From Dokdonia sp. PRO95 (lineage in GTDB: Bacteria; Bacteroidota; Bacteroidia; Flavobacteriales; Flavobacteriaceae): DNA of 64,000 nucleotides. The notes beneath the pieces were generated by a model. That model saw only the letters and a program-made list of their open reading frames with translations. It made no database searches and was not told where the DNA came from. Within the stretch, counting starts at the first letter, position 1. The number at the start of each line of letters is the position of its first letter. The stretch lies in NCBI RefSeq assembly GCF_000355805.1, contig NZ_CM001837.1, forward strand, positions 2,074,155-2,138,154, given 5' to 3'. This document shows positions 3,342 through 63,836 of this stretch, one piece after another. The translations under genes and the position numbers were made by a program.

Positions 3342-5182
3342 ACTATTGGGATGTTGATTATGATTGACGTTCCGCGACCTTCTTTGGCGTCTATTGTTAA
3401 GTTTCCGTCAAGCGCCTTTATACGTCTTTCTATAGAAGATAAGCCCATTCCGTCTGTTTTTAATGATGTTCTTTCTGGATCAAATCCTTTGCCGTCATCT
3501 TCAAATACAAGATTAATTTTATCTTCAAAATAAGTGAGGTCGATGGTTACCGCTTTCGCGAAAGCGTGCTTAATTGTGTTTGTAATAAGTTCTTGAATAA
3601 TCCTGAAAAGCGTAAGCTCCACCGCATTACCTATACGAGTGTCCTCCCCGTGAGAAAACACCTCAATGACCAGTTGGTTTGCACCTGAAACCTGTGCCGC
3701 ATACTCCTTAATAGCAGGAAGCAAACCTAGAGAAATAGGATTTCCAGAGTTGCGCTCGTGAGCAATGCTGCGTACTTTTTGATAGGCAAGCTCAAGTATA
3801 TCATCTGTTTTTTTAATGAGTGTGTCTTGCTCTTCTTCAAGCCTATTTTTCTTAACCTTAAGATTTTCCATATACAGCTTTAAGGTTGCAAGAAGCCCAC
3901 CTAGGTTGTCGTGTAGATCCTCTGCTATACGCTGTCTTTCCTTTGCTTGACCTTCCACCATCGCGTCTATGCTGGAGAGTTCTTGATTTCTTAAAAGTAT
4001 CTCGTTTTCTCGCTCCGTGAGTAATCTCTTTTTACGCTGATTTTTAATCAAGAAGATAGCTGTAATGGCGATTGCAATAAGCGCAAGGATTGCGGCAATA
4101 AGGAGCGAGCGATTAAGTAAACGTTTCTTTTTCTCGAGCTCATTTTCTAGTTCTAGTTCGCGCGTTCTATACAAGGTCAAGTTTTTATTCTGACTTTCTA
4201 TTTGTGCGCTATCGGTATACTGTATGTATAATTCTTGATAGTAGAGCGCACTATCAAGAGCTGCAATATTTTTATAATCTGAAGAGAGGTAATTATAGAG
4301 ATTACGTTTATTATTTATCTTGAACTGTTTTATCCCAATCTTATCTGCTCGGCGCATATAGGTAATCGCCTCTTTGTAATTTTCATTAGAGCGAGGTACG
4401 GTAGCTCTATTGAGATATGCATAAAACAGATCGTCTGAAGTTCCATATAATTCTGAAAGCTGCAACGACTTATCAAAATGATAAATAGCCGAATCCTGTT
4501 GCGTCGTAAAACTTGAATAATACAAGCCTATGTAGCTGTGATAAAGCTCCACTCGCGATGAATCTCCTATTCTTCTGGCAATTGCTTTTGCCTTATTCAT
4601 TTGAGAGAAAAACTCTTTTTTGTGAGTAGCATCAAATTTTGCTGCTGCAAGGCCTATTCTAGCAAGTAACTCGCCTATTGGGTCATTGAGCTGCTCGCTA
4701 TTAGTCAACAACGTATTGAGCAAATTTTTGTTTTCTATAGCTAGATGCTTTTGCGAACTGATAATATAATGCAGCTCATAGTTTAATCTATTTGCTTGAA
4801 TGGGAGCGTTAGATTGTTCAAACAATTTCTGGGCAATAGTGAGATTGCGATAGGCAAGATCTTCTTGGTTAGCATAGCTATAAGATTTACCAAGGCTTTT
4901 GTAGTAGTATGCTCTGTCTATACCTGAAAGTGCTGTGCTATCGATCTTTTTAAGATAAACAGACGCTGTATCCATTTTCTTTTCATACATTTTGAATAAG
5001 ACTTGTATGTTAAGAAGAACATCTTTGTCAGCTTTTGAGGACTCAAAACCTTCCAATACTAAGGCAGCTTTATCTACTTGCTTGTATTGTAGCAAAGAGT
5101 CTATAGTTTTAATCTGCGCATTAAGCTGGATGCTCAAAGCGCAGATTAAGAGTAGTAATTTGTAGTATTTTTTTACAGGCAT
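3338..5182 (-). CDS. Sensor histidine kinase, periplasmic TPR domain plus HisKA_3/HATPase
   Basis: The 614-residue protein has a signal peptide (1-22), a TPR-like helical sensor region (about 30-340), one membrane helix (about 358-378), a coiled linker and a NarX/DesK-type transmitter. The phospho-accepting His is in AEDLHDN (about residue 424), the N-box in ELITNTIKHAF, and the G-boxes in DDGKGF and DGMGLSSIERR. Flavobacteria commonly use this TPR-kinase architecture, but the stimulus is unknown. The iterated palindrome at 3551-3566 lies inside the N-box region and encodes AFAKA where such kinases usually have AKA plus a variable residue. It lies in an operon with the gene starting at 5757 (2-base gap) and the response regulator. 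Confidence 0.92.
   Translation of the reverse strand: MPVKKYYKLLLLICALSIQLNAQIKTIDSLLQYKQVDKAALVLEGFESSKADKDVLLNIQVLFKMYEKKMDTASVYLKKIDSTALSGIDRAYYYKSLGKSYSYANQEDLAYRNLTIAQKLFEQSNAPIQANRLNYELHYIISSQKHLAIENKNLLNTLLTNSEQLNDPIGELLARIGLAAAKFDATHKKEFFSQMNKAKAIARRIGDSSRVELYHSYIGLYYSSFTTQQDSAIYHFDKSLQLSELYGTSDDLFYAYLNRATVPRSNENYKEAITYMRRADKIGIKQFKINNKRNLYNYLSSDYKNIAALDSALYYQELYIQYTDSAQIESQNKNLTLYRTRELELENELEKKKRLLNRSLLIAAILALIAIAITAIFLIKNQRKKRLLTERENEILLRNQELSSIDAMVEGQAKERQRIAEDLHDNLGGLLATLKLYMENLKVKKNRLEEEQDTLIKKTDDILELAYQKVRSIAHERNSGNPISLGLLPAIKEYAAQVSGANQLVIEVFSHGEDTRIGNAVELTLFRIIQELITNTIKHAFAKAVTIDLTYFEDKINLVFEDDGKGFDPERTSLKTDGMGLSSIERRIKALDGNLTIDAKEGRGTSIIINIPIV
3551..3566. repeat. Iterated palindrome copy 1 (perfect)
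   Basis: A perfect CGCTTTCGCGAAAGCG inside the histidine kinase gene, read as AFAKA on the minus strand. Confidence 0.95.
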
Positions 5183-5184
5183 TT

Positions 5185-5757
5185 TTATTTTGTGCCTGGT
5201 TTTAGTACACCGCCGTTTGAAGTGAGAGGGGAGACTGATTTTTCCTTTTTTATTAGTTTAGAAATAGCCTCTTGAATTTCTGTAGCATCAGGAATTTTTT
5301 GAGTTTGACCACGTCCAATTATGAAATTTTCACTCATGAATTTTGCAATTCCTTTTCTAACTTTTTTTGTAAAAAGGTCTTCGTCTTCTTCGTGTACTAC
5401 TATTATGGCAAGGTTTTCATTGAATTCCGGGTCTATTCCTACAAGCTTACCATCTTCAGATATTGTGATCAATTGAGTAGCTCTATCTTTAACCTCTTTT
5501 TCTACAACTTGAAAGTTATATACTACTAAAATCCCAACAGGTTTTTTCTTGTAGAATAATGTTCTGCAAATATTTACTGTTTTATTTTCAGATGAAAGTA
5601 AGCTATAGTCCGTGCCATCCTCAGTATATACTTCATTAGGTATATTGATACTTACTTTATAATCAAAATATTGCTTTCCTCTTTTGTATTCTCCTTCAAT
5701 ATTTTCAAAATTCGCCATCTCTTGTTTTAGTTTTTGGTTAGTTGTAATATTTATCAT
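5185..5757 (-). CDS. Hypothetical protein, first gene of the two-component operon
   Basis: The product is 190 residues from the first ATG, or 177 if translation begins at MANFENIEG. It is soluble, with no signal peptide, and has mixed beta/alpha character with an acidic segment around VVHEEDEDLFTKK and a basic, Pro/Gly-containing tail. No family is recognised. The stop codon is two bases before the kinase start, so it should be co-expressed with the sensor and regulator and may modulate them. About 170 bases separate it from the next upstream gene. Confidence 0.6.
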   Translation of the reverse strand: MINITTNQKLKQEMANFENIEGEYKRGKQYFDYKVSINIPNEVYTEDGTDYSLLSSENKTVNICRTLFYKKKPVGILVVYNFQVVEKEVKDRATQLITISEDGKLVGIDPEFNENLAIIVVHEEDEDLFTKKVRKGIAKFMSENFIIGRGQTQKIPDATEIQEAISKLIKKEKSVSPLTSNGGVLKPGTK

Positions 5758-7670: not shown

Positions 7671-7675
7671 AAAAG

Positions 7676-8071
7676 TGGAGTCGGAGGGATTCGAACCCTC
7701 GTCCAAACAAGCAATATTACTGCTTTCTACGTGTGTAGTTTCTGTTTGAATTTTCGTGAGATTGCCGGTTAGAAACTACCAACGCACCCCTTATCTTCAA
7801 TTAGGTGTCTCTCTCGCATCAAAGCCCTACGAGGGATAGGTTTACTTTTACGAAGTCACTATATCGATTGCCGTAAACCAAGGCTCTCGAGTGACTTCCT
7901 GCTTGTCTACCTTGTAGACCGAGGCGTAATCTTACTATAATTCAGATTATGCAGCTAGGGCGTAGTTGTTCTCGCCGTTTAAAAAGATGAAAAATGAGAT
8001 TTACGAGCTGTTTTCCAGCGCTCGACACGCTTACAATACTATTGGTCTCGCTGTCAAAACCAGTCGACCCC
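7676..8071 (-). ncRNA. ssrA: tmRNA (transfer-messenger RNA)
   Basis: The 5' end on the minus strand reads GGGGTCGACTGGTTTTGAC, the conserved tmRNA acceptor/D-region start. The 3' end has a T-arm with GGTTCGAATCCC-type sequence (GGGTTCGAATCC complement of 7687-7700) and an encoded CCA. The tag frame at 7947-7976 encodes GENNYALAA followed by a stop, matching the Bacteroidetes ALAA-ending degradation tag. tmRNA rescues ribosomes stalled on broken mRNAs and marks the peptide for proteolysis. The length (about 396 nt) is normal. The ends are taken from acceptor-stem pairing (GGGGTCG with CGACTCC, one wobble), so each could be off by one or two bases. Confidence 0.96.
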
Positions 8072-8090: not shown

Positions 8091-8106
8091 TGCTTTCGCG
8101 AAAGCG
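8091..8106. repeat. Iterated palindrome copy 2 (14-bp core intact)
   Basis: TGCTTTCGCGAAAGCG lies between the tmRNA 5' end and its likely -7 box, so it may fall in the tmRNA precursor leader. Confidence 0.9.
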
Positions 8107-9487: not shown

Positions 9488-10408
9488 ATGAAAGTTCTTA
9501 TCACAGGCGCAACGGGATTAGTAGGGCGCGCGCTTACAGACTTATGTCATAAAGATGGCATAAGTGTACATTATCTAACTACCTCAAAAGATAAAATTGA
9601 GGATACACCTAATTATAAAGGATTTTACTGGAATACAAAGACAGACGAGCTAGACGAAGCATGTTTTGATGGAGTCGAAACAATTATCCACCTTGCTGGA
9701 GCATCCATTGCGCAGCGCTGGACATTAGAAAATAAAAAGGCAATTTTTGAAAGTAGAGCCACAACAGCGAGATTGTTGTATAGTGCGCTTTCGCGAAAGC
9801 GGTCTAAAAACCAACCTATTTCTATAAAGCATTACATATCTGCCAGTGCAGTAGGTGGCTATCCATCATCATTTACAAAATTGTATGATGAATCTTATCC
9901 GGAATATGCTAAAGGCTTTTTAGGACAAGTTGTTGAAGAGTGGGAAAATGCTGCTTTAGAGTTTCAAAAGCTCGATATCATTACTAGCCGCGTGAGAACG
10001 GGGATTATTCTCGATAAAGACAGTGGAGCATTACCTAAAATTATGCAACCTGTAAAATATGGAGCAGGTGCACCATTAGGATCAGGAAAACAATGGCAAT
10101 CATGGATTCATGTAGATGATATGGCAGGGATTTACTTCCATATATTAAAAAATAAATTGGCTGGTATATATAATGGGGTAGCACCACATCCAGTTACAAA
10201 TAAAAATCTGACAGAGGTGGTAGCAGACACTATGGGCAAACCACTTATAATATCTAGGGTTCCTAAATTTGCACTTAAACTTATGCTAGGCGACATGGCA
10301 GCAATTGTGCTTGAAAGTCAAAAAGTAAGCGCTCTTAAAATTAAAACAGATGGATATAAATTTAAATACCCAAAAATCGATCAAGCTATTGAAAGCTTAT
10401 TAGACTAA
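9488..10408 (+). CDS. TIGR01777-family NAD-dependent epimerase-like protein (YfcH/SDR39U1 type)
   Basis: The 306-residue protein begins with the Rossmann dinucleotide motif ITGATGLVG (residues 4-12), and has HLAGASIAQRW and a C-terminal DUF1731-like region, as in the extended atypical SDR group. The catalytic function of this family is poorly known. The iterated palindrome at 9786-9801 encodes LSRKR in a surface loop-like position (about residues 100-105). A terminator follows immediately, so it is the end of its transcript. Confidence 0.8.
   Translation: MKVLITGATGLVGRALTDLCHKDGISVHYLTTSKDKIEDTPNYKGFYWNTKTDELDEACFDGVETIIHLAGASIAQRWTLENKKAIFESRATTARLLYSALSRKRSKNQPISIKHYISASAVGGYPSSFTKLYDESYPEYAKGFLGQVVEEWENAALEFQKLDIITSRVRTGIILDKDSGALPKIMQPVKYGAGAPLGSGKQWQSWIHVDDMAGIYFHILKNKLAGIYNGVAPHPVTNKNLTEVVADTMGKPLIISRVPKFALKLMLGDMAAIVLESQKVSALKIKTDGYKFKYPKIDQAIESLLD
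9786..9801. repeat. Iterated palindrome copy 3 (perfect)
   Basis: A perfect 16-mer inside the TIGR01777 gene, read in the LSRKR frame. Confidence 0.95.
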
Positions 10409-11213: not shown

Positions 11214-11229
11214 CGCTTTCGCGAAAGCG
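11214..11229. repeat. Iterated palindrome copy 4 (perfect, intergenic)
   Basis: A perfect 16-mer between the divergent YceI and grpE genes, away from any coding frame. Confidence 0.95.
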
Positions 11230-13658: not shown

Positions 13659-14597
13659 ATGAATTCATTACTCGTTGCAGATACTGTCTCAAAGAAGTTT
13701 GGTGACTTTACCGCACTTAATAACGTTTCCATTGCTGTCCCAGAAGGAAGCATTTTTGGGCTACTGGGCCCTAATGGCGCTGGCAAGACAACACTCATTC
13801 GTATTATCAACCAGATTACTATGCCAGATACGGGTAGTGTAACGCTAGGAGGTGAGCCATTACAACAGCATCACATACGCGACATAGGCTATATGCCAGA
13901 GGAGCGTGGCTTATATAAATCTATGAAAGTAGGGGAACAGGTGCTCTACCTAGCCCAACTTAAAGGTTTATCAAAAGCAGATGCAAAAAAACGAGCCAAA
14001 CACTGGTTTGAAAAACTAGAAATAGGCGACTGGTGGGATAAAAAAATTCAAGAACTTTCTAAAGGACAGGCGCAGAAAATCCAATTTGTGGTGACCGTAA
14101 TGCACCAGCCCAAGTTGCTCATTTTTGATGAGCCCTTCAGTGGTTTTGATCCTATAAATGCAAACCTCATTAAAGATGAGATTTTGCAATTACGTGATGA
14201 GGGAGCTACCGTTATCTTCAGCACGCACCGTATGGAATCTGTAGAGGAGCTATGCGATCATATTGCACTTATCAATAAGTCTAATAAAATACTAGATGGT
14301 GAGGTAAACAGTATTAAGAGAGCATACCAGAATAATACGTTTGATGTGGGAGTGCAGGTTGTAGATGAGACCGCTTTCGCGAAAGCGGAACAAGAACTCA
14401 AAGCTGCTTTTAAAGTAACTCAAGCGCATTTTAAAAGTCTTGGTAATGAACGTAAGCTTCGTGTGGAAATGGGCGATAAGTCTACACCAAACGAATTGCT
14501 TACTACCTTAAAAAATTATGGACAAGTCACTCATTTTATGGAAGTGATACCAAGCGTAAACGATATCTTCATTCAAACAGTTAGCCAAAACAAATGA
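13659..14597 (+). CDS. ABC exporter ATPase (NatA type)
   Basis: The 312-residue ATPase has Walker A GPNGAGKTT (about residues 37-45), signature LSKGQAQKIQF, Walker B LLIFDEP (about 153-159), a switch histidine in FSTHRM, and a C-terminal DUF4162-like extension. It overlaps the permease gene by four bases, so the two form one exporter, likely for Na+ or an unidentified drug/peptide. The palindrome at 14372-14387 encodes AFAKA (about 239-243) in the C-terminal extension. Confidence 0.9.
   Translation: MNSLLVADTVSKKFGDFTALNNVSIAVPEGSIFGLLGPNGAGKTTLIRIINQITMPDTGSVTLGGEPLQQHHIRDIGYMPEERGLYKSMKVGEQVLYLAQLKGLSKADAKKRAKHWFEKLEIGDWWDKKIQELSKGQAQKIQFVVTVMHQPKLLIFDEPFSGFDPINANLIKDEILQLRDEGATVIFSTHRMESVEELCDHIALINKSNKILDGEVNSIKRAYQNNTFDVGVQVVDETAFAKAEQELKAAFKVTQAHFKSLGNERKLRVEMGDKSTPNELLTTLKNYGQVTHFMEVIPSVNDIFIQTVSQNK
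14372..14387. repeat. Iterated palindrome copy 5 (perfect)
   Basis: A perfect 16-mer in the NatA-like ATPase gene, AFAKA frame. Confidence 0.95.
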
Positions 14598-15898: not shown

Positions 15899-15912
15899 CA
15901 CTCCTTCTTGTT

Positions 15913-16878
15913 ATGCAGGAAGAGACTGTAGAGAAGGTAAAAGATATTATTGAACAAGACGTATGGGGCACTATTAAGGAGTGGCTGGGCTTCGAGCTTA
16001 TAAGTGTAGGAAAGGAACCTAATCATATAGGGCTTACTATTGGTCATCTTATTATTCTAATAATAGCTTTTATACTCACAAGCATTCTCCTTAAGTGGAT
16101 ACGTGTGTTAATGACACGTAAAATGGAGGGCGATGACAAACTTAAGTTTGTAAGTGTTTTTAAGTTTATCAAGTATATCGCTTATATAGTGGTAGTGCTT
16201 GCTACGATGAGTGCTTCAGGGATTAATATTACGGTGCTGCTCACAGCATCTGCAGCATTATTTGTAGGTTTAGGACTTGCATTGCAGGAGGTATTTCAAG
16301 ACGTAATAGGTGGTATTCTTATTATGATTGATAAGTCTATATCTGCAGGAGATATTATAGAAATGGATGGAAGAGTAGGTCGTGTGTTTGAAATTAAATT
16401 ACGTACTACAAGAGCATTAACTAGAGATGATAAAGTAATAATTATCCCTAATCATAAGTTTATAACAGACACTGTCTATAATTACACTCAAAACCATAAA
16501 ACCACCCGAGAGAATGTAAAGGTGGGCGTTGCTTATGGAAGTGATACGAGACAAGTGGAAAAAATATTACTAGAATGTGCAGTTGCACATCCTGAGATTT
16601 TAAAGCATCCAAAGCCTTTTGCACTTTTTGAAAACTTTGGTGATAGTTCGCTTGATTTTGGTTTATACTTTTTTGTGAGAGACAGTTTTGTAGACCCAAG
16701 AATTAAAAGTGCGCTTAGGTATGCTATAGACGACCGTTTTCGCGAAAGCGGGATTTCCATTCCCTTTCCTCAAAGAGATGTACATCTTTTTAATACGGCA
16801 AACCCAATATATACACCTAATAAAACAGCAGTTAATACCAATATCGAACCCCCTAAAAATGATATGATTGATGAATAA
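15913..16878 (+). CDS. Small-conductance mechanosensitive channel (MscS family)
   Basis: The preferred start is the ATG at 15913; an ATG at 15883 is also in frame but would overlap the permease gene by 16 bases. The product (321 aa) has helices at about 45-65 and 80-110, the pore-lining TM3 stretch GLGLALQEVFQDVIGG and the beta domain with GDIIEMDGRVGRVFEI and IPNHKF. Such channels open on membrane tension to release solutes. A degenerate palindrome copy at 16735-16750 encodes RFRESG. Confidence 0.9.
   Translation: MQEETVEKVKDIIEQDVWGTIKEWLGFELISVGKEPNHIGLTIGHLIILIIAFILTSILLKWIRVLMTRKMEGDDKLKFVSVFKFIKYIAYIVVVLATMSASGINITVLLTASAALFVGLGLALQEVFQDVIGGILIMIDKSISAGDIIEMDGRVGRVFEIKLRTTRALTRDDKVIIIPNHKFITDTVYNYTQNHKTTRENVKVGVAYGSDTRQVEKILLECAVAHPEILKHPKPFALFENFGDSSLDFGLYFFVRDSFVDPRIKSALRYAIDDRFRESGISIPFPQRDVHLFNTANPIYTPNKTAVNTNIEPPKNDMIDE
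16735..16750. repeat. Iterated palindrome copy 6 (one mismatch)
   Basis: CGTTTTCGCGAAAGCG inside the MscS gene, read in the third frame (FRES). Confidence 0.85.
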
Positions 16879-19819: not shown

Positions 19820-21212
19820 AAATTTACGTTATATACTTGCGACTGCACTAGTAGTTGTTTCCGCTTTCGCGAAAGCGCAAAATGATTCAATTACCGTGAG
19901 AAAAATATACTCGGCAGCGCTTACAGAAGGGCAAAGTTACGAGTGGCTTGATCATCTTTCTAACCAAATAGGATCGAGACTAAGCGGAAGCCTAGGAGCT
20001 GAAAGAGCCGTGACGTGGACAAAAAGCGAACTAGAAAAAGCGGGTCTTGATAAGGTGTGGTTACAACCAGTGATGGTGCCAAAATGGATACGTGGTGAAG
20101 CTGAAAGAGCATTTATAGAAGGGGATAACGCAAGCACGACATCTGTACCTATTTGTGCATTGGGAGGTTCTGTTGCTACAAAGACTACTGGACTTAAAGC
20201 ACATGTAGTTGAGGTGATGGGAATAGAAGAATTAAAAGGTTTAAATCCTGATGAGGTAAAAGGTAAAATTGTCTTTTTCAATAGGCCTATGGATGATGAG
20301 CTTATAAGAACATTTCAAGCTTATGGTGGATGCGTAGACCAGCGTTATGCAGGAGCGATGGAAGCGGCAAAGCTAGGCGCTGTAGGTGTAATCGTAAGAT
20401 CTGTAACACATAGCTTTGATGATTACCCGCATACAGGATCGATGTCTTATGGTGACTTACCAAATTCAAAACGTATTCCCGCAGCGGCAATCAGTACCAA
20501 AGGGGCAGCGCTTTTAAGTACATCGTTGAAACTAAATCCTGATACCAAGTTTTTCTATAAAATGTCTTGTAAAAATCTCGCAGATGTTGAGTCGCATAAT
20601 GTGATAGGAGAGATTACAGGAAGTGAATATCCAGATAAATATATGGTCGTAGGCGGTCACTTAGATTCTTGGGATCTAGGAGACGGCTCGCATGATGATG
20701 GTGCGGGGGTAGTGCAAAGTATGGAAGCTTTACGATTAATGAAAGCAATAGGCTATAAGCCTAAGCATAGTATACGTGTAGTATTATTCATGAATGAAGA
20801 AAATGGCCTTCGAGGAGGTAATAAGTATGCTCGAGAAGCTAAGGCAAAGGGTGAAAACCATGTCTTTGCTTTAGAAAGTGACTCTGGAGGATTTACACCA
20901 AGAGGTTTTTCTTTTGATAGTGACGATCGTAACTTTAATGAAGTGCTCACTTGGAAATCATTATTTGAGCCTTACTTAATCCATGACTTTACAAGGGGAG
21001 GAAGCGGTGCAGATATTGGTCCGCTCAAAGCTACAAATGATGGTATTGTACTCGCAGGACTGCGTCCAGACTCACAACGTTATTTTGACCATCACCATGC
21101 GGCAAATGATACCTTTGATGCAGTAAATAAAAGAGAACTTGAACTAGGCGCTGCCACAATGACCAGCCTATTATATTTGATGGATAATTATATACAGCCT
21201 TCAGGGAAATAA
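19812..21212 (+). CDS. Secreted M28-family zinc aminopeptidase/carboxypeptidase
   Basis: The 466-residue protein has a signal peptide (about 1-22) and an M28 catalytic domain with GGHLDSWDLG (about 281-290), HDDGAG, NEENGLRGG (about 327-335) and a late HHHAANDTFD, which together supply the two-zinc site. An inserted PA-like domain lies at about 120-260. It should cleave peptides in the periplasm or outside the cell. The palindrome at 19862-19877 encodes SAFAKAQ exactly at the signal-peptide cleavage region (AFA/KAQ). Confidence 0.92.
   Translation: MNKNLRYILATALVVVSAFAKAQNDSITVRKIYSAALTEGQSYEWLDHLSNQIGSRLSGSLGAERAVTWTKSELEKAGLDKVWLQPVMVPKWIRGEAERAFIEGDNASTTSVPICALGGSVATKTTGLKAHVVEVMGIEELKGLNPDEVKGKIVFFNRPMDDELIRTFQAYGGCVDQRYAGAMEAAKLGAVGVIVRSVTHSFDDYPHTGSMSYGDLPNSKRIPAAAISTKGAALLSTSLKLNPDTKFFYKMSCKNLADVESHNVIGEITGSEYPDKYMVVGGHLDSWDLGDGSHDDGAGVVQSMEALRLMKAIGYKPKHSIRVVLFMNEENGLRGGNKYAREAKAKGENHVFALESDSGGFTPRGFSFDSDDRNFNEVLTWKSLFEPYLIHDFTRGGSGADIGPLKATNDGIVLAGLRPDSQRYFDHHHAANDTFDAVNKRELELGAATMTSLLYLMDNYIQPSGK
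19862..19877. repeat. Iterated palindrome copy 7 (perfect)
   Basis: A perfect 16-mer forming the signal-peptidase region of the M28 peptidase gene, AFAKA frame. Confidence 0.95.
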
Positions 21213-22884: not shown

Positions 22885-22900
22885 CGCTTTCGCGAAAGCG
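22885..22900. repeat. Iterated palindrome copy 8 (perfect, intergenic)
   Basis: A perfect 16-mer ending 15 bases before the MATE start codon, so it would lie in the 5' leader or promoter of that gene. Confidence 0.95.
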
Positions 22901-22915: not shown

Positions 22916-24262
22916 ATGAGATTCTCAGACTACACAAAGGAATTTGGCATCAATCTTAAAATAGCATATCCTATTATGTTAGGACAGCTAGGTCATATTC
23001 TTGTAGCACTGGCAGATAATTTAATGGTTGGACAGCTGGGTGCAGCACAACTTGCAGCAGTAAGTCTAGGCAATAGCTTGGTGTTTATTGCACTTTCCAT
23101 AGGTATCGGATTTTCATTTGCCATCACTCCGCTTGTAGCAGAGGCAGATGGGAAGGATGATATAGAAAAAGGTCGCTTGCACTTTCATCACGGAGTGATT
23201 ATGTGTACCATAAATGGCGTGCTACTATTTATTACGCTATTAATCGCAAAACCGTTGTTATATATGCTTGATCAGCCACCAGAGGTGGTAGAGCTTGCAA
23301 TTCCATATCTTGAGATTGTAGCACTGTCTATGATTCCGCTCATGATTTTTCAAGGTTTTAAGCAGTTTGCAGATGGCCTGTCACAAACCAAATATGCAAT
23401 GTATGCTACCATTATAGCAAACGTGGTCAACGTTGTATTTAACTACGTCTTGATTTACGGTATTTGGGTATTCCCAAGATTAGAAGTAGAAGGTGCAGCC
23501 TGGGGAACTTTAATTTCACGTTTCTTTATGGTAGCACTGTTGATATTTATGCTTTCGCGAAAGCGTAAATTCAAACCCTATTTTCACTGGGGAAGTAAGG
23601 AGCACATCCAGCTTGCTGAGTTTAAAACCTTATTTAAATTAGGATTTCCAACAGCATTACAGATGCTTTTTGAAGTAGGCGTTTTTACAGCTGCTATATT
23701 TTTATCTGGAATACTAGGAACAAATGCACAAGCGGCAAATCAAATTGCGCTTAACCTTGCCTCTATGACATTTATGATTGCTGTAGGATTAGGAGTAACG
23801 GCAACCATACGCGTGGGAAATCAAAAAGGTAAAGCCGATTTTCCTAACCTACGACGTATCGCTTTTTCTATTTTTATACTCTGTTTCTTAATTGAAGCTG
23901 TATTTGCAGTAGGATTTATATTGCTTAAAGACTGGCTTCCTCCATTTTATATAGATAATCCAGAAGTGATTTTTCTAGCAGCCCAATTATTAATTGTGGC
24001 AGCGTTATTCCAACTAAGTGACGGAGTGCAAGTAACCATACTTGGAGCATTGCGCGGATTGCAAGATGTAAATATTCCCACAGTAATCTGTTTTATAGCC
24101 TACTGGATCATAGGATTCCCTATCATGTGGTATATGGGAAAAGAGGAGCAATTGGGTGTTCAAGGTGTCTGGGTGGGCTTACTAGCAGGGCTTACGGCCT
24201 CTGCAGTAATGTTGTACTTTAGATTTAATTACCTTAGCAAGAAATTAATAGACCAACAGTAA
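22916..24262 (+). CDS. MATE-family multidrug/Na+ antiporter
   Basis: The 448-residue protein has 12 predicted membrane helices in two six-helix halves, with the MATE features AYPIMLGQLGHILVALADNLMVGQLG at the N-terminus and NQIALNLASMTFMIAVGLGVTATIRVG in the second half. It exports organic cations or similar drugs in exchange for Na+ or H+. The palindrome at 23550-23565 encodes LSRKR in the cytoplasmic loop between halves. The next small gene follows in 13 bases. Confidence 0.93.
   Translation: MRFSDYTKEFGINLKIAYPIMLGQLGHILVALADNLMVGQLGAAQLAAVSLGNSLVFIALSIGIGFSFAITPLVAEADGKDDIEKGRLHFHHGVIMCTINGVLLFITLLIAKPLLYMLDQPPEVVELAIPYLEIVALSMIPLMIFQGFKQFADGLSQTKYAMYATIIANVVNVVFNYVLIYGIWVFPRLEVEGAAWGTLISRFFMVALLIFMLSRKRKFKPYFHWGSKEHIQLAEFKTLFKLGFPTALQMLFEVGVFTAAIFLSGILGTNAQAANQIALNLASMTFMIAVGLGVTATIRVGNQKGKADFPNLRRIAFSIFILCFLIEAVFAVGFILLKDWLPPFYIDNPEVIFLAAQLLIVAALFQLSDGVQVTILGALRGLQDVNIPTVICFIAYWIIGFPIMWYMGKEEQLGVQGVWVGLLAGLTASAVMLYFRFNYLSKKLIDQQ
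23550..23565. repeat. Iterated palindrome copy 9 (14-bp core intact)
   Basis: TGCTTTCGCGAAAGCG in the MATE gene, LSRKR frame. Confidence 0.9.
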
Positions 24263-27483: not shown

Positions 27484-28072
27484 AGAGCTCATGAAGAATG
27501 ATAGCGACAGTAAGGAATCACTGCGCGAGGGACATACACGTCGCTTTGAGAATTTACTTGAAGAGCGCTTGCCTATTCAGGAGCAAAAAACTTCGGCTAA
27601 AGGAGGTATCTATTTATGGATGAAAATTGCAGCAGTACTTATTGTAGCTGGTGGAATTGTATTTATGGTGTATAATAACGCTTTCGCGAAAGCGGAAGAT
27701 CAACAAATAGTAGAGGTAGAGACAAGTGAAAAACAAAGTGCAGAACCAGAAGTGTTACTAAGCGCCATCTCACCAGAATTTAAACGAGTGGAGGATTATT
27801 ACCTCGCAAGTGTAAATCTTGAGATTGCGAGATTAGAAATCACTGATGATAACAAAGAACTTATAGATGCTTTTATGAAGCAACTGTCTGATCTGGATGA
27901 AGAGTACAAGAGCCTCAATCGTGAGATTACCGAAAGTGGAGTAAGTGATGAAATGGTAAGTGCGATGATTGAGAATCTCAAATTACGTGTAGAGCTTATG
28001 ATAAAGCTCAAGTCAAAATTGAAAGAAATGAAAAACGCTGCTCAGCAAGAAGCAGCCATTCAAACCGTATAA
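27467..28072 (+). CDS. Single-pass membrane protein, probable anti-sigma factor
   Basis: The 201-residue protein has a cytoplasmic N-terminus with a short helix, one membrane helix (about 50-70, MKIAAVLIVAGGIVFMVY) and a periplasmic C-terminus that is largely coiled coil (about 110-195). This layout fits an anti-sigma factor for the preceding ECF sigma, but no zinc-binding HxxxCxxC motif is seen. The palindrome at 27679-27694 encodes AFAKA just after the membrane helix. Confidence 0.6.
   Translation: MAQDIRELMKNDSDSKESLREGHTRRFENLLEERLPIQEQKTSAKGGIYLWMKIAAVLIVAGGIVFMVYNNAFAKAEDQQIVEVETSEKQSAEPEVLLSAISPEFKRVEDYYLASVNLEIARLEITDDNKELIDAFMKQLSDLDEEYKSLNREITESGVSDEMVSAMIENLKLRVELMIKLKSKLKEMKNAAQQEAAIQTV
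27679..27694. repeat. Iterated palindrome copy 10 (perfect)
   Basis: A perfect 16-mer right after the membrane-helix codons of the anti-sigma-like gene, AFAKA frame. Confidence 0.95.
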
Positions 28073-30558: not shown

Positions 30559-31351
30559 TCGCTTGCGCAACGGCGTGTTCTTTATTTGTAAAAGGACTCA
30601 CATAATCTGCTAGTGACTTTAGGGTGTCTGTGGCATTTGCTACTGCAACACCTAGTCCTACCTTTTTTATGAGTTCATCGTCATTATGATTATCGCCAAA
30701 AGCCATTACTTCACTCATCTCATAGCCATATTGGGCTAGTAAAAGTTTTTTCAAAGCAGTTGCTTTGTCTATATTTTTTGGAGTGATCTCGAGATACGTA
30801 TCCTTAGAGCGATAAAAGTGTACGGTATCTTTATAAGCGGGCGTGAGAAGTTCTATAATTTCGTCAAGCTCTTCTGGCTTACCCATACACATGAGTTTAT
30901 GGATTCCAAGATGCTCCTTGTTTAAAAAATCGAGACTTTCTAAGGCTGTTTGATATACTGGAGTTGCACTGGTATTGTTTATTTCGCGCAAGCTCCACTC
31001 ATCTTCCCTATCTGTAAACCAGTGTTCATGACTATAAATACTTAGGTTATAAGTATGTTCAGCGTGATGACGTACTAAGTTATCGAGTAGCGAAGTAGGG
31101 AAGGTGTTGCTTTCTATAACCGTGTTATCCTTGCCTATAATAAGCCCGCCATTAAAAGCTATTAGAGACTCACCTAGGTTGCCCAGACCTTCTTGTAAGT
31201 ACCGCATAGCTTGCGGCGGTCTTGAGGATGCTAGAATGAGGGGTAATCCCGCTTTCGCGAAAGCGTAAACAGTCTCTTCACTTAACCAGCGCTCTTTATT
31301 TAATAACGTACCGTCTATATCTGAACATAGTATTTTTATAGTGTTTTCCAT
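30533..31351 (-). CDS. Cof-type HAD phosphatase
   Basis: The 272-residue protein shows HAD motif I SDIDGTLLN (about 9-17), motif II ILASSRPP, motif III lysine region and motif IV FGDNHNDDELI near the end, with a C2B cap as in Cof/YidA sugar-phosphate phosphatases. The substrate is not known. The palindrome at 31250-31265 encodes AFAKAGLPL in the helix before motif II. Confidence 0.9.
   Translation of the reverse strand: MENTIKILCSDIDGTLLNKERWLSEETVYAFAKAGLPLILASSRPPQAMRYLQEGLGNLGESLIAFNGGLIIGKDNTVIESNTFPTSLLDNLVRHHAEHTYNLSIYSHEHWFTDREDEWSLREINNTSATPVYQTALESLDFLNKEHLGIHKLMCMGKPEELDEIIELLTPAYKDTVHFYRSKDTYLEITPKNIDKATALKKLLLAQYGYEMSEVMAFGDNHNDDELIKKVGLGVAVANATDTLKSLADYVSPFTNKEHAVAQAINKFLIAD
31250..31265. 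repeat. Iterated palindrome copy 11 (perfect)
   Basis: A perfect 16-mer in the HAD gene, AFAKA frame on the minus strand. Confidence 0.95.
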
Positions 31352-35215: not shown

Positions 35216-35231
35216 CGCTTTCGCGAAAATT
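35216..35231. repeat. Iterated palindrome copy 12 (degenerate, intergenic)
   Basis: CGCTTTCGCGAAAATT: the left half is intact and the last three bases of the right half differ. It lies in the 177-base gap before the adenosyltransferase stop. Confidence 0.75.
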
Positions 35232-39165: not shown

Positions 39166-41085
39166 TTATCCTTCCATCTTAGATGATAATTCAAACCATC
39201 GCTCCTCTTTTGAGGATATAGCGTCTATTATTTTCTGTAATTTCAGGCTTTCTTCGGTGATTTGATCTTGAGTAAGGTCAGGGTTTAAAAATACCTTCTG
39301 CTTTTCTTCTTTCTCGCGTTCTAGTTTTGCTATATCACGCTCTAATTTTGTATGTTCTTTTTGCTCATTATAACTAAGCGTTCCTGTGTGCTGTTGCTCT
39401 TTCCAAGATTTTGTTTCGGCAGCAGCGGCGTCCATAGATTCGTTAAACTTCTGCTTATTCTCTAGCTGTGCTTGTTCTTTTTCTGCTTTCGCGAAAGCGT
39501 TACTTATCCCTCCCTCGTAAGCTCTAAAATCTGAGTAATTACCTGGAAAATCTTCTACTACAGCGTCACCTTTAAAAACAAAAAGGTGATCTACAATCTT
39601 ATCCATAAAGTATCGGTCGTGAGAAACCACCACGAGGCAACCTGGGAAATCTAGTAAAAATTGTTCTAATACGTTAAGTGTTACAACGTCCAGGTCGTTT
39701 GTAGGTTCATCAAGAATCAAGAAGTTAGGATTCTGGATAAAAATAGTACATAAGTAAAGACGCTTACGCTCTCCACCACTCAATCGCTCTACAAAATCAT
39801 ATTGTTTTTTACGGTCAAAAAGGAAGCGTTCTAGTAACTGTCCAGCAGAGATTGTTCTGCCTTTTTTAAGTGGGATGTGATCGCCAAATTCTTTAATAAC
39901 ATCTATTACCTTTTGTCCTTCTTTGATGTTTATTCCTTTCTGAGTGTAGTAGCCAAACTTTACAGTGTCGCCCACAATAACTTTTCCAGAATCTGGTGCC
40001 AGCTCACCCGTCATCATGTTGAGAAAAGTAGTTTTACCTGTTCCATTTTTACCTATAATCCCAACGCGCTCTCCAGTTTTAAAAACGTACTCAAATTGAT
40101 CAAGCAATTTGAGATCACCAAAGGATTTACTGATTTTATGAAACTCAAGAATTTTACTTCCCATACGCTCCATATTAATCTCAAGCTGCACAGTATGGTC
40201 ATTGCGACGCTCATGTGCACGAGATTTAATCTCTGCAAAGTCATCTATACGTGACTTTGACTTTGTGGTACGTGCCTTAGGCTGGCGACGCATCCACTCG
40301 AGTTCTTTCTTGTAAAGTTGCTTTGCTTTTCCCGTTTCTGTCTCCCATGCTGCAATACGCGCATCCTTGTTCTCGAGGTAATAAGCATAGTTACCTTTAT
40401 AACTATATAGTACACCACCCTCAAGCTCTACAATCTCATTACACACATTCTCCAGAAAGTAACGGTCGTGCGTTACCATAAAGAGTGTGATGTTCTCAGT
40501 GCGAAAATAATCTTCTAGCCACTCAATCATCTCTAGGTCAAGGTGGTTAGTAGGCTCGTCTAGTATGGCGAGATCTGGTTTAGTGAGCATCATTTGAGCT
40601 AGAGCAAGGCGCTTTTTTTGCCCACCACTAAGTAGCTCAACTTTACGATCCATGTCATTAAGTTTCAACTTGAAAAGGATCTGTTTATATTGTGTTTCAA
40701 AATCCCATGCTTGTGCAACTTCCATGGCGTCAAATGCTTTTTGGTAAGCATCTGCATCCTCCATATTGAGGAGCGCCTTCTCGTAGTTTGCAATGGTTTT
40801 AAGAATAGGGTTATCGTGAGCAAATATGGTTTCCTCTACGGTAAGATTAGGGTCGAGATCTGGTTCCTGAGGTAAAAACGAAATCACAATACCCTTTCTG
40901 CTCACCACTTGACCACTATCTGGAGCTTCCAGTCCGGCGATGATATTGAGGAGAGAGGTTTTACCTGTTCCATTTTTGGCAACAAAGCCTATTTTTTGAT
41001 CTTTGTTAATACCGAACGCTATGTCTTTAAAAAGATGGTGTTCGCCAAAGGATTTTGATACGTTTTCTACAGAGAGGTAATTCAT
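39166..41085 (-). CDS. ABC-F ATPase, Uup-like
   Basis: The start is ATG 41085 (MNYLSVENVSK), not the upstream TTG. The 639-residue protein has two ABC domains with Walker A VAKNGTGKT and IGKNGTGKT, signatures LSGGQKKRLALAQ and LSGGERKRLYL, the linker between them, and a C-terminal coiled coil (about 530-639) typical of Uup. ABC-F proteins act at the ribosome rather than in transport. The palindrome at 39484-39499 encodes AFAKA at the start of the coiled-coil region. Confidence 0.92.
   Translation of the reverse strand: MNYLSVENVSKSFGEHHLFKDIAFGINKDQKIGFVAKNGTGKTSLLNIIAGLEAPDSGQVVSRKGIVISFLPQEPDLDPNLTVEETIFAHDNPILKTIANYEKALLNMEDADAYQKAFDAMEVAQAWDFETQYKQILFKLKLNDMDRKVELLSGGQKKRLALAQMMLTKPDLAILDEPTNHLDLEMIEWLEDYFRTENITLFMVTHDRYFLENVCNEIVELEGGVLYSYKGNYAYYLENKDARIAAWETETGKAKQLYKKELEWMRRQPKARTTKSKSRIDDFAEIKSRAHERRNDHTVQLEINMERMGSKILEFHKISKSFGDLKLLDQFEYVFKTGERVGIIGKNGTGKTTFLNMMTGELAPDSGKVIVGDTVKFGYYTQKGINIKEGQKVIDVIKEFGDHIPLKKGRTISAGQLLERFLFDRKKQYDFVERLSGGERKRLYLCTIFIQNPNFLILDEPTNDLDVVTLNVLEQFLLDFPGCLVVVSHDRYFMDKIVDHLFVFKGDAVVEDFPGNYSDFRAYEGGISNAFAKAEKEQAQLENKQKFNESMDAAAAETKSWKEQQHTGTLSYNEQKEHTKLERDIAKLEREKEEKQKVFLNPDLTQDQITEESLKLQKIIDAISSKEERWFELSSKMEG
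39484..39499. repeat. Iterated palindrome copy 13 (14-bp core intact)
   Basis: TGCTTTCGCGAAAGCG in the ABC-F gene, AFAKA frame on the minus strand. Confidence 0.9.
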
Positions 41086-41179
41086 CAGGAAATAGTGTAG
41101 ATGCAATACGTTGCACCATTTACGATTAGTTGGTCACATGAGTGCTCAACCAGTATTTTAGTATTGTGGTATGCGTTTA

Positions 41180-41195
41180 CGCTTTCGCGAAAGCA
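41180..41195. repeat. Iterated palindrome copy 14 (14-bp core intact, intergenic)
   Basis: CGCTTTCGCGAAAGCA in the divergent gap between the ABC-F gene and the polysaccharide locus. Confidence 0.9.
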
Positions 41196-45490: not shown

Positions 45491-46317
45491 TGAGAAATTC
45501 AATACGACTATATTGGTGGAGTGAGATACATATCCAAAAGAAGAAAAAAGAGAACTATGGAGACCTCTTAGGGAAATACCTTGTAGAAAAGATCTCAAGA
45601 AAATCGGTTAAGTGGGTACGCGCAAATAAATTTCATCTTAAAAATTTATGGAAACCTTTATATGTAACCATTGGAAGTGTTTTAGAGCATATAGGTCCAC
45701 GTTGTACTGTTTGGGGTAGTGGTATAAACCATAGAGATTCTGTGATTTCTAATGCCACTTTTCTAGCAGTGAGAGGCCCGCTTTCGCGAAAGCGATTACT
45801 TAGCATGGGCTATTCATGTCCTGAAGTGTATGGTGATCCAGCGCTATTATTGCCACTTTTCTTTGAGAATACATTTGCTAAAAAAACAAAAATTGGAGTG
45901 ATACCTCACATCAATGATTATGTAGCTGTAGCACAAATGTTTGCTAATATTCCAGAGGTGAAGGTTATAGATTTTAGAACAAATGACATAGAGTCTACAA
46001 CTAAAGAAATTCTCTCTTGTGAGCGTATTATAGCATCATCGTTACACGGTGTAATTGTAGCGCACGCTTATCAAATACCTGCCGTTCAAGTAATTTTTTC
46101 AAATAAAATTTTTGGAGATGGGGTGAAATATCATGACTATTTTATGTCTGTAGGTTTAGATCCTTACAGAGCATTGACAGTAGATACACCAGAAGATGTA
46201 AATCATTGGATTTCTTTTGTTGAAAATCATAAAAATGCACTTCCAGATATAGGGCTCATAGAAAGTTTACAAAAGAAACTTCTTGAGGTATGTCCTTTTA
46301 AAGCATTAAATCAATGA
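45490..46317 (+). CDS. Polysaccharide pyruvyl transferase family protein
   Basis: The 275-residue protein has the PS_pyruv_trans pattern YWWSEIHIQKKKKENYGDLLGKYL, VWGSGINHR and the late SSLHGVIVAHAYQIPAVQV. Family members add pyruvate ketals to sugars, using phosphoenolpyruvate. It sits between the permease and ATPase of the ABC exporter and overlaps the latter by four bases. The palindrome at 45779-45794 encodes LSRKR. Confidence 0.88.
   Translation: MRNSIRLYWWSEIHIQKKKKENYGDLLGKYLVEKISRKSVKWVRANKFHLKNLWKPLYVTIGSVLEHIGPRCTVWGSGINHRDSVISNATFLAVRGPLSRKRLLSMGYSCPEVYGDPALLLPLFFENTFAKKTKIGVIPHINDYVAVAQMFANIPEVKVIDFRTNDIESTTKEILSCERIIASSLHGVIVAHAYQIPAVQVIFSNKIFGDGVKYHDYFMSVGLDPYRALTVDTPEDVNHWISFVENHKNALPDIGLIESLQKKLLEVCPFKALNQ
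45779..45794. repeat. Iterated palindrome copy 15 (perfect)
   Basis: A perfect 16-mer in the pyruvyl transferase gene, LSRKR frame. The next copy is 8.2 kb away. Confidence 0.95.
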
Positions 46318-53606: not shown

Positions 53607-54391
53607 ATTATATGATTTCTGTTGTAATACGTAATAAAAATCAAGAGGTAGCTTTAGCGTTTTTACTTAAAAACCTAAGAGAACGCTATAATGATGATAT
53701 AGATGAAATAGTAGTTGTAGATAACCTATCTACAGATGGTAGCGAGAAAGTAGCTGCCATATATAATGCACGCTTTGAGACTATTAGAGAGTTTAGTTAT
53801 GGAGGTAGTGCAAACTTTGCTGCTCAAAAAGCAACTCATGATGTAGTGGTTCTTTTTAGTGCTCATTCATATCCTGTGAGTCATGATTTTTTTAAGCTCA
53901 TAAAAGATAAATTTCAAAGCAATAATAACCTTGCAGGCTTACGCTGCCTGCATAGTCCTAATGATTACCGCAATTATATCAACAATGTAAGCGCACAGGA
54001 TGATCCTAATAAATCTGGTTTAATTTTTTCTGGTTCCGCTTTCGCGAAAGCGGTATGGCAAAAACATCCCTTTAATGATAATGTCTCCACTTTTGAAGAT
54101 AAAGAATGGTCTAAGAGGGTTCTTGAAGCTGGTTACAAAATCGACTTCGTTCCAGCGATATTTAGCTACGAAATTAAACGAACAAAGGCTCAAGAATTTT
54201 TTAGATTTAAAAATGATATAATTGGCAACTATCAATTGTGGCATGAAGAGGTTAGTGCTTTTTCTGCATTTAAAGGGCTTTTAGCGACAAGCTGGAGACT
54301 TAAGAGAGGGTTTGTTTTAGATTTGTGGTATGCGTTTAAACGCTTTCTATACACGATAAAGTTCTCTTTTAATAAACCAGAAAAATTCTAA
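53603..54391 (+). CDS. GT2-like glycosyltransferase
   Basis: Start is GTG 53603 or the ATG at 53612 (MISVVIRNKNQ). The 262-residue protein has a GT2 nucleotide-binding core (VVDNLSTDGSEKVA) and STFEDKEWSKRVLEAG near the end. The palindrome at 54037-54052 encodes AFAKA. It overlaps the acyltransferase start by one base. Confidence 0.82.
   Translation: MNYMISVVIRNKNQEVALAFLLKNLRERYNDDIDEIVVVDNLSTDGSEKVAAIYNARFETIREFSYGGSANFAAQKATHDVVVLFSAHSYPVSHDFFKLIKDKFQSNNNLAGLRCLHSPNDYRNYINNVSAQDDPNKSGLIFSGSAFAKAVWQKHPFNDNVSTFEDKEWSKRVLEAGYKIDFVPAIFSYEIKRTKAQEFFRFKNDIIGNYQLWHEEVSAFSAFKGLLATSWRLKRGFVLDLWYAFKRFLYTIKFSFNKPEKF
54037..54052. repeat. Iterated palindrome copy 16 (perfect)
   Basis: A perfect 16-mer in a GT2 gene, AFAKA frame. 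Confidence 0.95.
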
Positions 54392-57471: not shown

Positions 57472-58586
57472 AAATTTTATTCGTATCCATGAACTCTATT
57501 CACTTCCGCCGCTGGTCAGATCAGTTGCGAGATAGCGGCCATGAGGTATATTGGTTTGATGTAAAAGATCAAGGATATGCACCATCTATGAGCTGGATGA
57601 CTCAAATTACAGGATGGAAGAAAGGCTTTTTGAAGAAAAGAGGTCGTACGTTTATTAAAAATAAAATTCCTCAATTATATAAGACTCTAGTTCGAAGGTT
57701 TGATCACCCTATAGAGGATGCTTTCGCGAAAGCGTTACAAGACATAAAGCCAGATGTTGTTCATAGCTTTGCTCTATATACTTCTTGTTTGCCTATTCTT
57801 TTAACAATGAATCAATTCAATAAAATACCATGGATTTATTCTAGCTGGGGGAGTGATTTATATAATAAGGATAATAAGCCTAACTACTTAGATGAAGTTC
57901 CTTTAGTTCTGAAAAGGGTCGATTATCTTATTACAGATTGTCATAGAGATTTTATAATTGCTAAGGAAAATGGTTTTAAAGGAAGATTTTTAGGTGTTTA
58001 TCCTGGAGGAGGAGGGTTCAATAAGAGGTTGTTTAATCAAGAACGAAACAAAAATAGCTTTATAGTAAAGGGATACCATAATGATATAGGTAAAGCAATA
58101 CCAGTTCTAGAAGCGTTGATTGACTTATCAAAAAGCCAACCTTTGGAAATTATAATTTTTGGAGCTTCCATTGAGGTTTTAGAGTATCTAAAATTGCAAA
58201 AGGATACTGGCACTAGTTTAAGGTACTATGAAAATATATCACGCGATAAACTTTTTAAATTACTAGATAATTCAAGATTTTATATAGGCAATAGTTTAAG
58301 CGACGGTATGCCTAACACACTTTTTGAATCAATTTTCTGCGGATGCATCCCAATACAGTCTAACCCAGGGAATGTTACAGAGGAACTTATAACACATGGT
58401 GTTAACGGATTTTTAATCGAACATCCATTAAACGTGTCTCATATTAAAAATGTGATTGATGAAGCCCTTAACGATAATAAGAGTATAGGTGACTTCTATG
58501 ATAATAATGCGGAGTTGAGAGATTATTATGAGCGTAGTAATATCCAACAAAAAGTGATTGATATGTATAATACATTACTTGTATGA
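57468..58586 (+). CDS. GT4-family glycosyltransferase
   Basis: The 372-residue GT-B protein opens with ILFVSMNSIHFRRWSDQLRDSGHEV and has the GT4 end motif SDGMPNTLFESIFCGCIPIQS (about 283-303) with a binding Glu. The palindrome at 57719-57734 encodes AFAKA. Overlaps of four bases with both neighbours show tight coupling. Confidence 0.9.
   Translation: MKILFVSMNSIHFRRWSDQLRDSGHEVYWFDVKDQGYAPSMSWMTQITGWKKGFLKKRGRTFIKNKIPQLYKTLVRRFDHPIEDAFAKALQDIKPDVVHSFALYTSCLPILLTMNQFNKIPWIYSSWGSDLYNKDNKPNYLDEVPLVLKRVDYLITDCHRDFIIAKENGFKGRFLGVYPGGGGFNKRLFNQERNKNSFIVKGYHNDIGKAIPVLEALIDLSKSQPLEIIIFGASIEVLEYLKLQKDTGTSLRYYENISRDKLFKLLDNSRFYIGNSLSDGMPNTLFESIFCGCIPIQSNPGNVTEELITHGVNGFLIEHPLNVSHIKNVIDEALNDNKSIGDFYDNNAELRDYYERSNIQQKVIDMYNTLLV
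57719..57734. repeat. Iterated palindrome copy 17 (14-bp core intact)
   Basis: TGCTTTCGCGAAAGCG in the GT4 gene, AFAKA frame. Confidence 0.9.
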
Positions 58587-60670: not shown

Positions 60671-60714
60671 TATATCCAAAGCGAATAGCTTAAAGTAAGA
60701 GATTGACTATAACT

Positions 60715-61635: not shown

Positions 61636-61699
61636 TTTATTTATCGCCACGATGGTATATTATTAATTTTACTGATCCAGAAGAATAAAATTATCTTTC

Positions 61700-62563: not shown

Positions 62564-62672
62564 AACCAATTGAGAAGTAGAGTTTACTACAAGTGTTTTA
62601 ACCTAAAAATGCATACTTTTATCGGATAAATAGTTAAGGCGGTGTTAAAGCTTTGACTACAACCCAACCACA

Positions 62673-63836
62673 ATGAAAAGCATCGGTTTTATACCCCTGC
62701 GTAAAGGCTCAAAAGGCATTCCAGGTAAAAACAAAAAGAAACTTCTCGGTCGCCCACTATTCTGCTGGGTCTTAGGTGAAGCTATAGCTTCACGTCTTGA
62801 TACTATCTATATTTATACGGATGATGAGGATATCATCGCTTTTGTAGAAAAAGAATATCACTGGACAGATAAAGTTAAAGCCGTAAAACGTAGCGACGAG
62901 AGTGCTACAGATACTGCTTCTACAGAAATGGGGATGCAGGAGTTTGTAGCTGGTTTAAAAGAAGATTTTGATATACTGTGTTTACTCCAAGCAACATCAC
63001 CTTTTACAACTTCTCAAGATATAAATGCGTGCCTAGATGCAGTAGCGTCAGATACGAATAATGATTCGGCTCTTACGGTGGTAAATACACATAGATTTAC
63101 TTGGAATGCAGATGGAACACCTCAAAATTATGATGTATTCAACCGACCGCGTAGGCAAGATTTTCATGGGTTACTTATTGAGAATGGAGCTTGCTATGTG
63201 ACAACGCGTGACGCTATTCGCGAAAGCGGAAACAGAATAAGTGGTAAAATAGCGACGGTACACATGCCAGAGGATAGTCTTACAGAAATAGACACGCTGA
63301 CCGACTGGAAGATCGTGGAGCAATTGCTAGCCGCTCGTTTAAAAACTAAGAAGCAAAGTAACCGAATTACACATCTTATACTTGATGTAGATGGCGTGTT
63401 TACAGATGGCTGTATCTATTATGGTGCAGAGGGCGAACTGATGAAAAAGTTTGATATGCGCGATGGAATGGGACTTGAGATTTTGAGACAATATAATGTT
63501 GAGGTAATGGTGATGACATCTGAGGATTCTCAAATAGTTGCCAGCCGCATGAAGAAATTAAAAATAAACGATGTGTATCTAGGAGTGAAAGACAAGTACA
63601 GCTTGCTTTCTAGAATTGTGTCAGATAGAGGTCTTTCCTTTTCAAACATTGCTTATATAGGTGATGATGTGAATGATATGGCAAATATTTGTGCTGCAGG
63701 TTGGTCACTTACCCCTGCAAATGCCACAATGCCTATCAAGAATCACGCAGATATTATACTACAAAACAATAGCGCAGAAGGAGCAATACGCGAAGCCTGT
63801 GACTTTATTATAAAATACAATAACCGATATGAGTAA
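62673..63836 (+). CDS. neuA: Fusion of acylneuraminate cytidylyltransferase (NeuA) and KdsC-like HAD phosphatase
   Basis: The 387-residue protein has an N-terminal CMP-sugar transferase domain (about 1-225) with IPLRKGSKGIPGKNKKKLLGRP and LLQATSPFT, and a C-terminal HAD phosphatase (about 230-387) with LDVDGVFTDG, KFDMRDGMG and IGDDVNDMANI. Together they would remove phosphate from nonulosonate-9-phosphate and activate the sugar with CTP. The degenerate palindrome 63212-63228 lies near residue 185. It overlaps neuB by 8 bases. Confidence 0.92.
   Translation: MKSIGFIPLRKGSKGIPGKNKKKLLGRPLFCWVLGEAIASRLDTIYIYTDDEDIIAFVEKEYHWTDKVKAVKRSDESATDTASTEMGMQEFVAGLKEDFDILCLLQATSPFTTSQDINACLDAVASDTNNDSALTVVNTHRFTWNADGTPQNYDVFNRPRRQDFHGLLIENGACYVTTRDAIRESGNRISGKIATVHMPEDSLTEIDTLTDWKIVEQLLAARLKTKKQSNRITHLILDVDGVFTDGCIYYGAEGELMKKFDMRDGMGLEILRQYNVEVMVMTSEDSQIVASRMKKLKINDVYLGVKDKYSLLSRIVSDRGLSFSNIAYIGDDVNDMANICAAGWSLTPANATMPIKNHADIILQNNSAEGAIREACDFIIKYNNRYE
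63212..63228. repeat. Iterated palindrome copy 18 (one inserted base)
   Basis: CGCTATTCGCGAAAGCG differs from the consensus by one inserted A and encodes IRESG in the neuA fusion gene. Confidence 0.75.

Follow-up and report, generated by a model that had tools for sequence, protein, structure and literature searches.

What is the 16-base palindrome CGCTTTCGCGAAAGCG that recurs through a 64,000-nucleotide stretch of the chromosome of Dokdonia sp. PRO95 (NZ_CM001837.1, positions 2,074,155 to 2,138,154; hereafter the window)? A preliminary description, made from the letters of the window, had claimed eighteen copies, and all are present. Allowing up to three mismatches we found 17 matches, each at a position already described: ten perfect, five with an intact 14-mer core (GCTTTCGCGAAAGC), one with a single mismatch (16735) and one with three (35216). 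The eighteenth (63212) is an otherwise perfect 16-mer split by one inserted A. In 100 dinucleotide shuffles of the window, the mean was 0.14 matches and the maximum 2. Our findings establish the palindrome as a highly iterated genome signature that we assign to none of the known families examined, and lead us to propose, tentatively, that it is a genome-wide mark of self-identity, working in the manner of a DNA-uptake signal sequence.

The copies are neither confined to the window nor close in number to what a Markov model predicts, the two outcomes that the preliminary description had named as speaking against a genome signature. In the single contig of this genome (3,305,093 bases) the 16-mer has 577 perfect copies and the core 794, or one core per 4.2 kb (240 per Mb), and the reversed control of each is found 0 times. 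A 464-kb sample, composed of the window and 20 stretches of the same genome, contained 103 cores, compared with 0.011 expected from an order-5 model with cores masked and 1.06 with sites kept in the training sequence. The motif is also sharp: the same sample held 10 one-mismatch and 38 two-mismatch 14-mers. The outer base pair of the 16-mer is less strict (C 83%, T 13%), and TTAC is preferred 5' and GTAA 3' of the core.

We sought to estimate how widely the signature is shared. All 18 Dokdonia genomes searched carry it, with 369-905 cores. In a family sample of 397 genomes, 408-664 cores were found in two other genera, g11 (3 of 3 genomes) and g215 (its one genome, G246); 74 of the remaining 391 genomes had 1-19 cores and the rest none, and the reversed control never exceeded 1. 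The highest count in a phylum sample of 394 genomes, besides that of our own genome, was 6, and outside the family never more than 1. Loci of relatives of an alanine-dehydrogenase-like (AlaDH-like) protein contained a core in all 10 entries titled Dokdonia and in 1 of 50 others (Olleya, L052, one copy). The AlaDH-like proteins of G003 and G010 are identical to Dokdonia records, that of G010 being the D. pacifica one. A phylogeny built on two proteins, the AlaDH-like one and AddB, placed G246 among motif-poor genera with support in the AlaDH trees and gave it no firm place in the AddB tree; the position of g11 was settled by neither. Because G246 groups with motif-poor genera in the AlaDH trees, two origins of the site set appear likely and three possible, the alternative being loss in many lineages.

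How do the sites arise and persist? The first 22 kb of the window contain seven copies (one degenerate); five of them align with other Dokdonia loci, giving 27 orthologous pairs. All 14 core bases were identical in 74% of these pairs, compared with 4% of 445 control pairs, whose 14-mers were picked at random so that some may overlap a site. The flanks were 75% identical; at that level, conservation of every core letter is more than a mismatch/repair product, one origin suggested in the preliminary description, can explain on its own. Among 109 alignments to orthologs without a core, the surrounding 94 bases were of equal length in 64 and longer in 24, and shorter by 1-9 bases in 12, by 10-26 in 5 and by more in 4. 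Counted within the 14 core columns only, 305 pairs were identical, 97 contained gaps and 74 had substitutions; gaps are therefore frequent locally, even though net insertions as large as a site are rare. The sites compared in this way arise mainly by substitution, not insertion. Across the 13 Dokdonia genomes that are at least 93% complete (the 5 of 18 at 76-89% were left out), core density falls with genome size (r = -0.74; counts hardly increase, r = 0.34, so part of this correlation is built in), as poorly marked accessory DNA would lead one to expect.

The cores are unevenly divided between genes and spacers and evenly spread along the chromosome. Of the 103 cores, 56 lie in open reading frames (ORFs; simple longest-ORF calls), 46 between them and 1 at a stretch end; the intergenic share of random positions is 8%, and cores are more than 5-fold enriched between genes. 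The spacers of divergent genes alone hold 19 cores where about 2 are expected, a roughly 9-fold excess. Coding copies impose the peptides AFAKA, LSRKR or RFRES, and 36 of the 56 genic cores are in frame 0 (Ala-Phe-Ala-Lys). Spacing among the first 100 of the 577 16-mers is more regular than Poisson (coefficient of variation 0.70, P 0.0002), with 2 of 99 gaps shorter than 1 kb against 15.4 expected, and each of the 20 stretches sampled around the chromosome has 2-7 cores (dispersion index 0.49).

The signature extends beyond the palindrome. With sides pooled, the stretch of about 25 bases that precedes the core on either strand is poor in C (lowest 7%, compared with 19%) and rich in G and T, a bias that fades over about 40 bases. 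Read in gene sense at 50 sites, the left flank is depleted in C and the right flank in G, whichever of the three codon positions is considered. Since mirror positions of the flanks show complementarity no higher than composition predicts, the flanks are not part of a longer palindrome. The bias in g11 (37 cores) equals or exceeds that of our own genome; it is weaker in G246 (28 cores plus 12 one-mismatch copies, a less sharp set) and in viral and island loci. A second, asymmetric class of 40 sites keeps TTTCGCGAAAGC and GTAA-like letters on one side, the opposite arm being AT-rich and typically reading TCAnATTTTCG; its flank bias is like that of the main class.

Phages and transferred DNA carry the palindrome as well. 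The 16-mer is present in 41 stretches of IMG/VR contigs, 6 of which exceed 52% G+C and may be chance matches; one 37-kb contig, whose pieces carry tailed-phage genes, has six 16-mers. Viral and island loci were chosen for holding a site, which biases their conservation figures, so relatives of two phage proteins were gathered regardless of site. Five of six terminase relatives (74-100% identity) had 1-2 cores and the sixth (34%) had 0. For the second protein, five near-identical relatives, the query included, had 2-3 cores, and 30 at no more than 58% identity (289 kb) had no core. Carriage is therefore limited to particular phage clades, whose hosts are presumably marked. In other genera, low counts are often clustered, and several of the 16 such stretches examined have long homologous DNA in common; we read these clustered copies as DNA that probably once lived in marked hosts. 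The sequence may also label phages and islands by host. Loci L021-L026, L029, L030 and L033 contain a likely copper-resistance island, found in several Flavobacteriaceae genera with palindromes at matching places. Its translations, read by eye in one stretch, include an efflux pump, an outer-membrane channel, a multicopper oxidase and P-type ATPases, and two of its sites account for a recurring 933-base spacing in G134, G143, G157 and G270.

A DNA-uptake mark was among the suggestions of the preliminary description; it is also our leading interpretation, one that we nonetheless hold with reserve. A symmetric, probably dimeric receptor, belonging to a transformation machinery independent of type IV pili, would bind the 14-22 bp palindrome together with the C-poor flanks, some 25 bp to either side. 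Marked DNA would be taken up and recombined more often, marked alleles would spread, and sites would build up by point mutation in long-resident DNA. We infer both this receptor and its role in uptake. The pattern supports the uptake interpretation in that it matches traits published for uptake sequences. Substitution origin, even spacing, an excess in non-coding DNA and, for the uptake signal sequence (USS), biased flanks are described in the accessible parts of two papers (PMC1626085, PMC1939737), and accumulation of USS by Pasteurellaceae phages in those of a third (PMC6776037). Like the DNA uptake sequence (DUS) of Neisseriaceae and the USS of Pasteurellaceae, the palindrome occurs in hundreds of sharp copies, genic as well as intergenic, evenly spaced and not inserted; it shares biased flanks with USS, is carried by phages of its hosts and is less frequent in accessory DNA. 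Unlike them, it has a palindromic core of 14-16 bp with bias on both flanks and about a quarter of their density, and it occurs in Bacteroidota, in genera that neither of the two protein trees brings together.

Several observations weigh against uptake. Known uptake sequences are non-palindromic and occur near once per kb, going by the parts available of PMC1939737 and PMC1626085, whereas here a palindrome occurs once per 4.2 kb. No paper on Dokdonia transformation was found in the literature searched. Candidate readers were sought in sets of 37 and 40 genomes, each including 13 motif-rich ones (9 of the 18 Dokdonia genomes and the 4 from g11 and g215). Three of the 13 motif-rich genomes have the type IV pilus platform (PF00482), as does 1 of the 27 motif-poor ones; the platform is absent from our own genome and 9 other carriers. 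The missing pilus is less damaging because Riemerella transforms with proteins unlike the known machinery: as far as the accessible portions of PMC8459023 and PMC7965970 go, it requires ComEC, DprA, RecA and ComF along with proteins of that kind at the surface and in the periplasm, no type IV pilus gene is among the eight essential genes of the screen, and the surface genes are said to be widespread in Flavobacteriaceae. In the same portions R. columbina prefers its own DNA, and Flavobacterium johnsoniae was not transformable in the authors' hands (PMC8459023, PMC7965970). None of the candidates that we sought was found to fit (RecC, two methyltransferase families, AddB, the pilus platform, ParB and KilA-N), the Riemerella transformation genes not having been searched for. 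KilA-N, included because its eukaryotic relatives bind CGCGAAA, was present in 0 of 40 genomes. In addition, half-sites number 206 inside the palindrome and 45 outside, the pattern of a cytoplasmic homodimer, and a cytoplasmic dimer would call for just such dyad symmetry and 14 strict bases. Of 218 site strands, 38 have the Bacteroidetes promoter word TAnnTTTG nearby, compared with 10% of random stretches, a mild hint of regulation.

Because symmetry and 14-base strictness suit a cytoplasmic dimer, our preference for uptake is a cautious one, and an intracellular dimeric DNA-binding protein that reads the palindrome in nucleoid organisation, segregation or global regulation, with sites selected singly, is the most serious rival, possible though less likely. 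Bias on both flanks, even spacing with cores in every sampled stretch, the excess between divergent genes with the promoter word nearby, and conservation of site positions within the genus would all suit it. Carriage by phages and transferred islands would not, nor would the lower density of larger genomes or the genic location of 56 of 103 cores. Segregation proteins offer the nearest model, since parS and Noc sites are also strict palindromes of 14-16 bp; here, however, there are about 800 copies, in all sampled parts of the chromosome and also in phages, and 12 of the 13 motif-rich genomes have a single PF02195 match (40 genomes searched; two in G010), leaving no extra ParB-family protein in those twelve. 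Of the chromosome-organisation site that the preliminary description had considered, the domain form is therefore weakened by even distribution, phage carriage and this lack, and the genome-wide nucleoid form survives as just this rival.

A Chi-like recombination signal, bidirectional by symmetry, would guard DNA from a helicase-nuclease and load RecA on the G/T-rich 3' strand. RecA prefers G/T-rich strands, and the flank bias would place such a strand on the side to be preserved; phages carry the site, and its density is near that of E. coli Chi (1008 copies, according to the available part of PMC1939737). We nevertheless consider such a signal unlikely. The RecC family (PF04257) was found in 0 of 40 genomes, the E. 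coli control being positive, and Chi is read on one strand, whereas half-sites alone are few here and little enriched. The AddB proteins of 6 carriers did not group in a tree with 14 others and had 0 carrier-specific shared columns, a weak test given that control sets average 0.10 and about 150 N-terminal residues were outside coverage. The cyanobacterial HIP1 (GCGATCGC), the closest parallel named in the preliminary description, resembles the palindrome in form, being short, palindromic, highly iterated and tolerated in genes, and its CG-rich centre could suggest that it is maintained by methyl-directed repair and by methylation at the inner TCGCGA. That link, and with it the proposed methylation-linked site, is quite improbable. 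HIP sequences go with methyltransferases, in the accessible text of PMC4390886, whereas no methyltransferase is shared by the carriers in the two families tested: C5 enzymes (PF00145) occurred in just 5 and N6/N4 enzymes (PF01555) above cut-off in just 2 of the 13 motif-rich genomes (37 searched; PF02086, PF02384 and PF07669 were not searched for). Moreover, 14 bp are required, and 18 of the 23 TCGCGA in the window fall within motif copies. The palindrome is also longer than HIP1, has biased flanks and reaches a density two to ten times lower than that given for HIP1 in the same text, 500-2500 copies per Mb (PMC4390886). A mobile repetitive extragenic palindromic (REP)-like element copied into place would yield many identical copies with an intergenic excess, yet it is very improbable: just the 5 of 109 core-less orthologs are shorter by 10-26 bp and over half of the copies lie inside genes, whereas REP elements insert as units between genes (their RAYT transposase was not searched for). 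The tests thus weaken the methylation, Chi, ParB/Noc and insertion explanations.

The palindrome is assigned to no known family because it fails, or leaves undecided, a defining test of each one examined. No report of it was found in the literature searched for the motif, its inner strings, HIP1 and uptake terms, a literature from which subscription papers are largely missing; no title on Dokdonia and palindromes concerned such a motif, and the strongest match to the inner strings concerns, in its accessible part, words absent from animal genomes (PMC8034619). In each known case (DUS/USS, Chi, HIP1), an iterated signature this strong points to some basic process in DNA traffic or repair. The one described here is longer, symmetric, confined to a few marine bacterial genera and written into proteins. 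It opens a testable route to how self might be told from foreign DNA in Flavobacteriaceae, a family in which transformation, where studied, involves no known pilus genes, or else to a genome-wide DNA-binding protein. Perhaps, although we put this forward with hesitation, a single horizontally mobile gene, encoding a reader specific to a long palindrome, was acquired by two or more separate Flavobacteriaceae lineages, namely Dokdonia and the distant genus of G246, and perhaps g11. Each genome would then have gained hundreds of identical sites by point mutation, amino-acid changes included, and phages would have followed. We infer the movement between genera. If true, the mobile palindromic mark would, as far as searched and known, be without precedent on two counts, as a self-recognition sequence of Bacteroidota and as one with palindromic form.

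The copies in the window illustrate these placements. Perfect 16-mers encoding AFAKA are at 3551..3566 (ORF 3338-5182, minus strand), 14372..14387 (ABC-transporter ATPase gene 13659-14597, plus), 19862..19877 (close to the start of the peptidase M28 gene 19812-21212, plus), 27679..27694 (ORF 27467-28072, plus), 31250..31265 (ORF 30533-31351, minus) and 54037..54052 (ORF 53603-54391, plus), and 14-mer cores encoding the same peptide at 39484..39499 (ORF 39166-41106, minus) and 57719..57734 (glycosyltransferase gene 57468-58586, plus). LSRKR is encoded by perfect copies at 9786..9801 (ORF 9488-10408, plus) and 45779..45794 (pyruvyl-transferase gene 45490-46317, plus) and by a core at 23550..23565 (MatE gene 22916-24262, plus). 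The copy at 16735..16750, with its mismatch in the core, lies within ORF 15883-16878 (plus) and the split copy at 63212..63228 within ORF 62673-63836 (plus). Between divergent ORFs are perfect copies at 11214..11229 and 22885..22900 and a core with A at position 16 at 41180..41195. The intergenic copy at 35216..35231, asymmetric with one outer arm AT-rich, fits the second site class. Finally, a core with T at position 1 (8091..8106) lies between the gene for tmRNA and that for the AlaDH-like protein; aligned to six Dokdonia loci it matched at 14 of 14 bases in five and 12 of 14 in one. The tmRNA gene (7673-8071, tag GENNYALAA) has this conserved palindrome directly upstream.

Other repeated words were seen in relatives. 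No dialect of the palindrome, similar to it in form, was found in 200-kb samples of six motif-poor genomes. AAAGTACTTT, considered as an iterated word of other genera, proved to be mostly one orthologous place. In two other Flavobacteriaceae, G157 (L287-L296) and G134 (L327-L336), CTTCCGAAG on either strand is about 10-fold over-represented; 81 of 85 copies of CTTCNGAAG are genic there, 53 of the 81 in one frame, and CTTCSGAAG was rejected as a dialect in these genomes, being nearly all genic, frame-biased and unevenly spaced. Two AAAGTACTTTG sites, separated by about 1 kb in several of L063-L095, are conserved at what is apparently one orthologous region of many Flavobacteriaceae; the pair was not seen in 10 Dokdonia loci and probably serves a local regulator. 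In our own genome, where close pairs are generally rare, two perfect sites lie 126 bp apart (L142:8519 and 8645; G000:C1:428518 and 428644) in a gene for a 1625-aa ATPase-like protein, with no obvious reader at that place. GC-rich extra stretches of about 20 bases seem to interrupt or adjoin the palindrome in L022, near the ortholog of L028:4641, and in L054, near the ortholog of window position 14372; they look as if another small element inserts at the palindrome.

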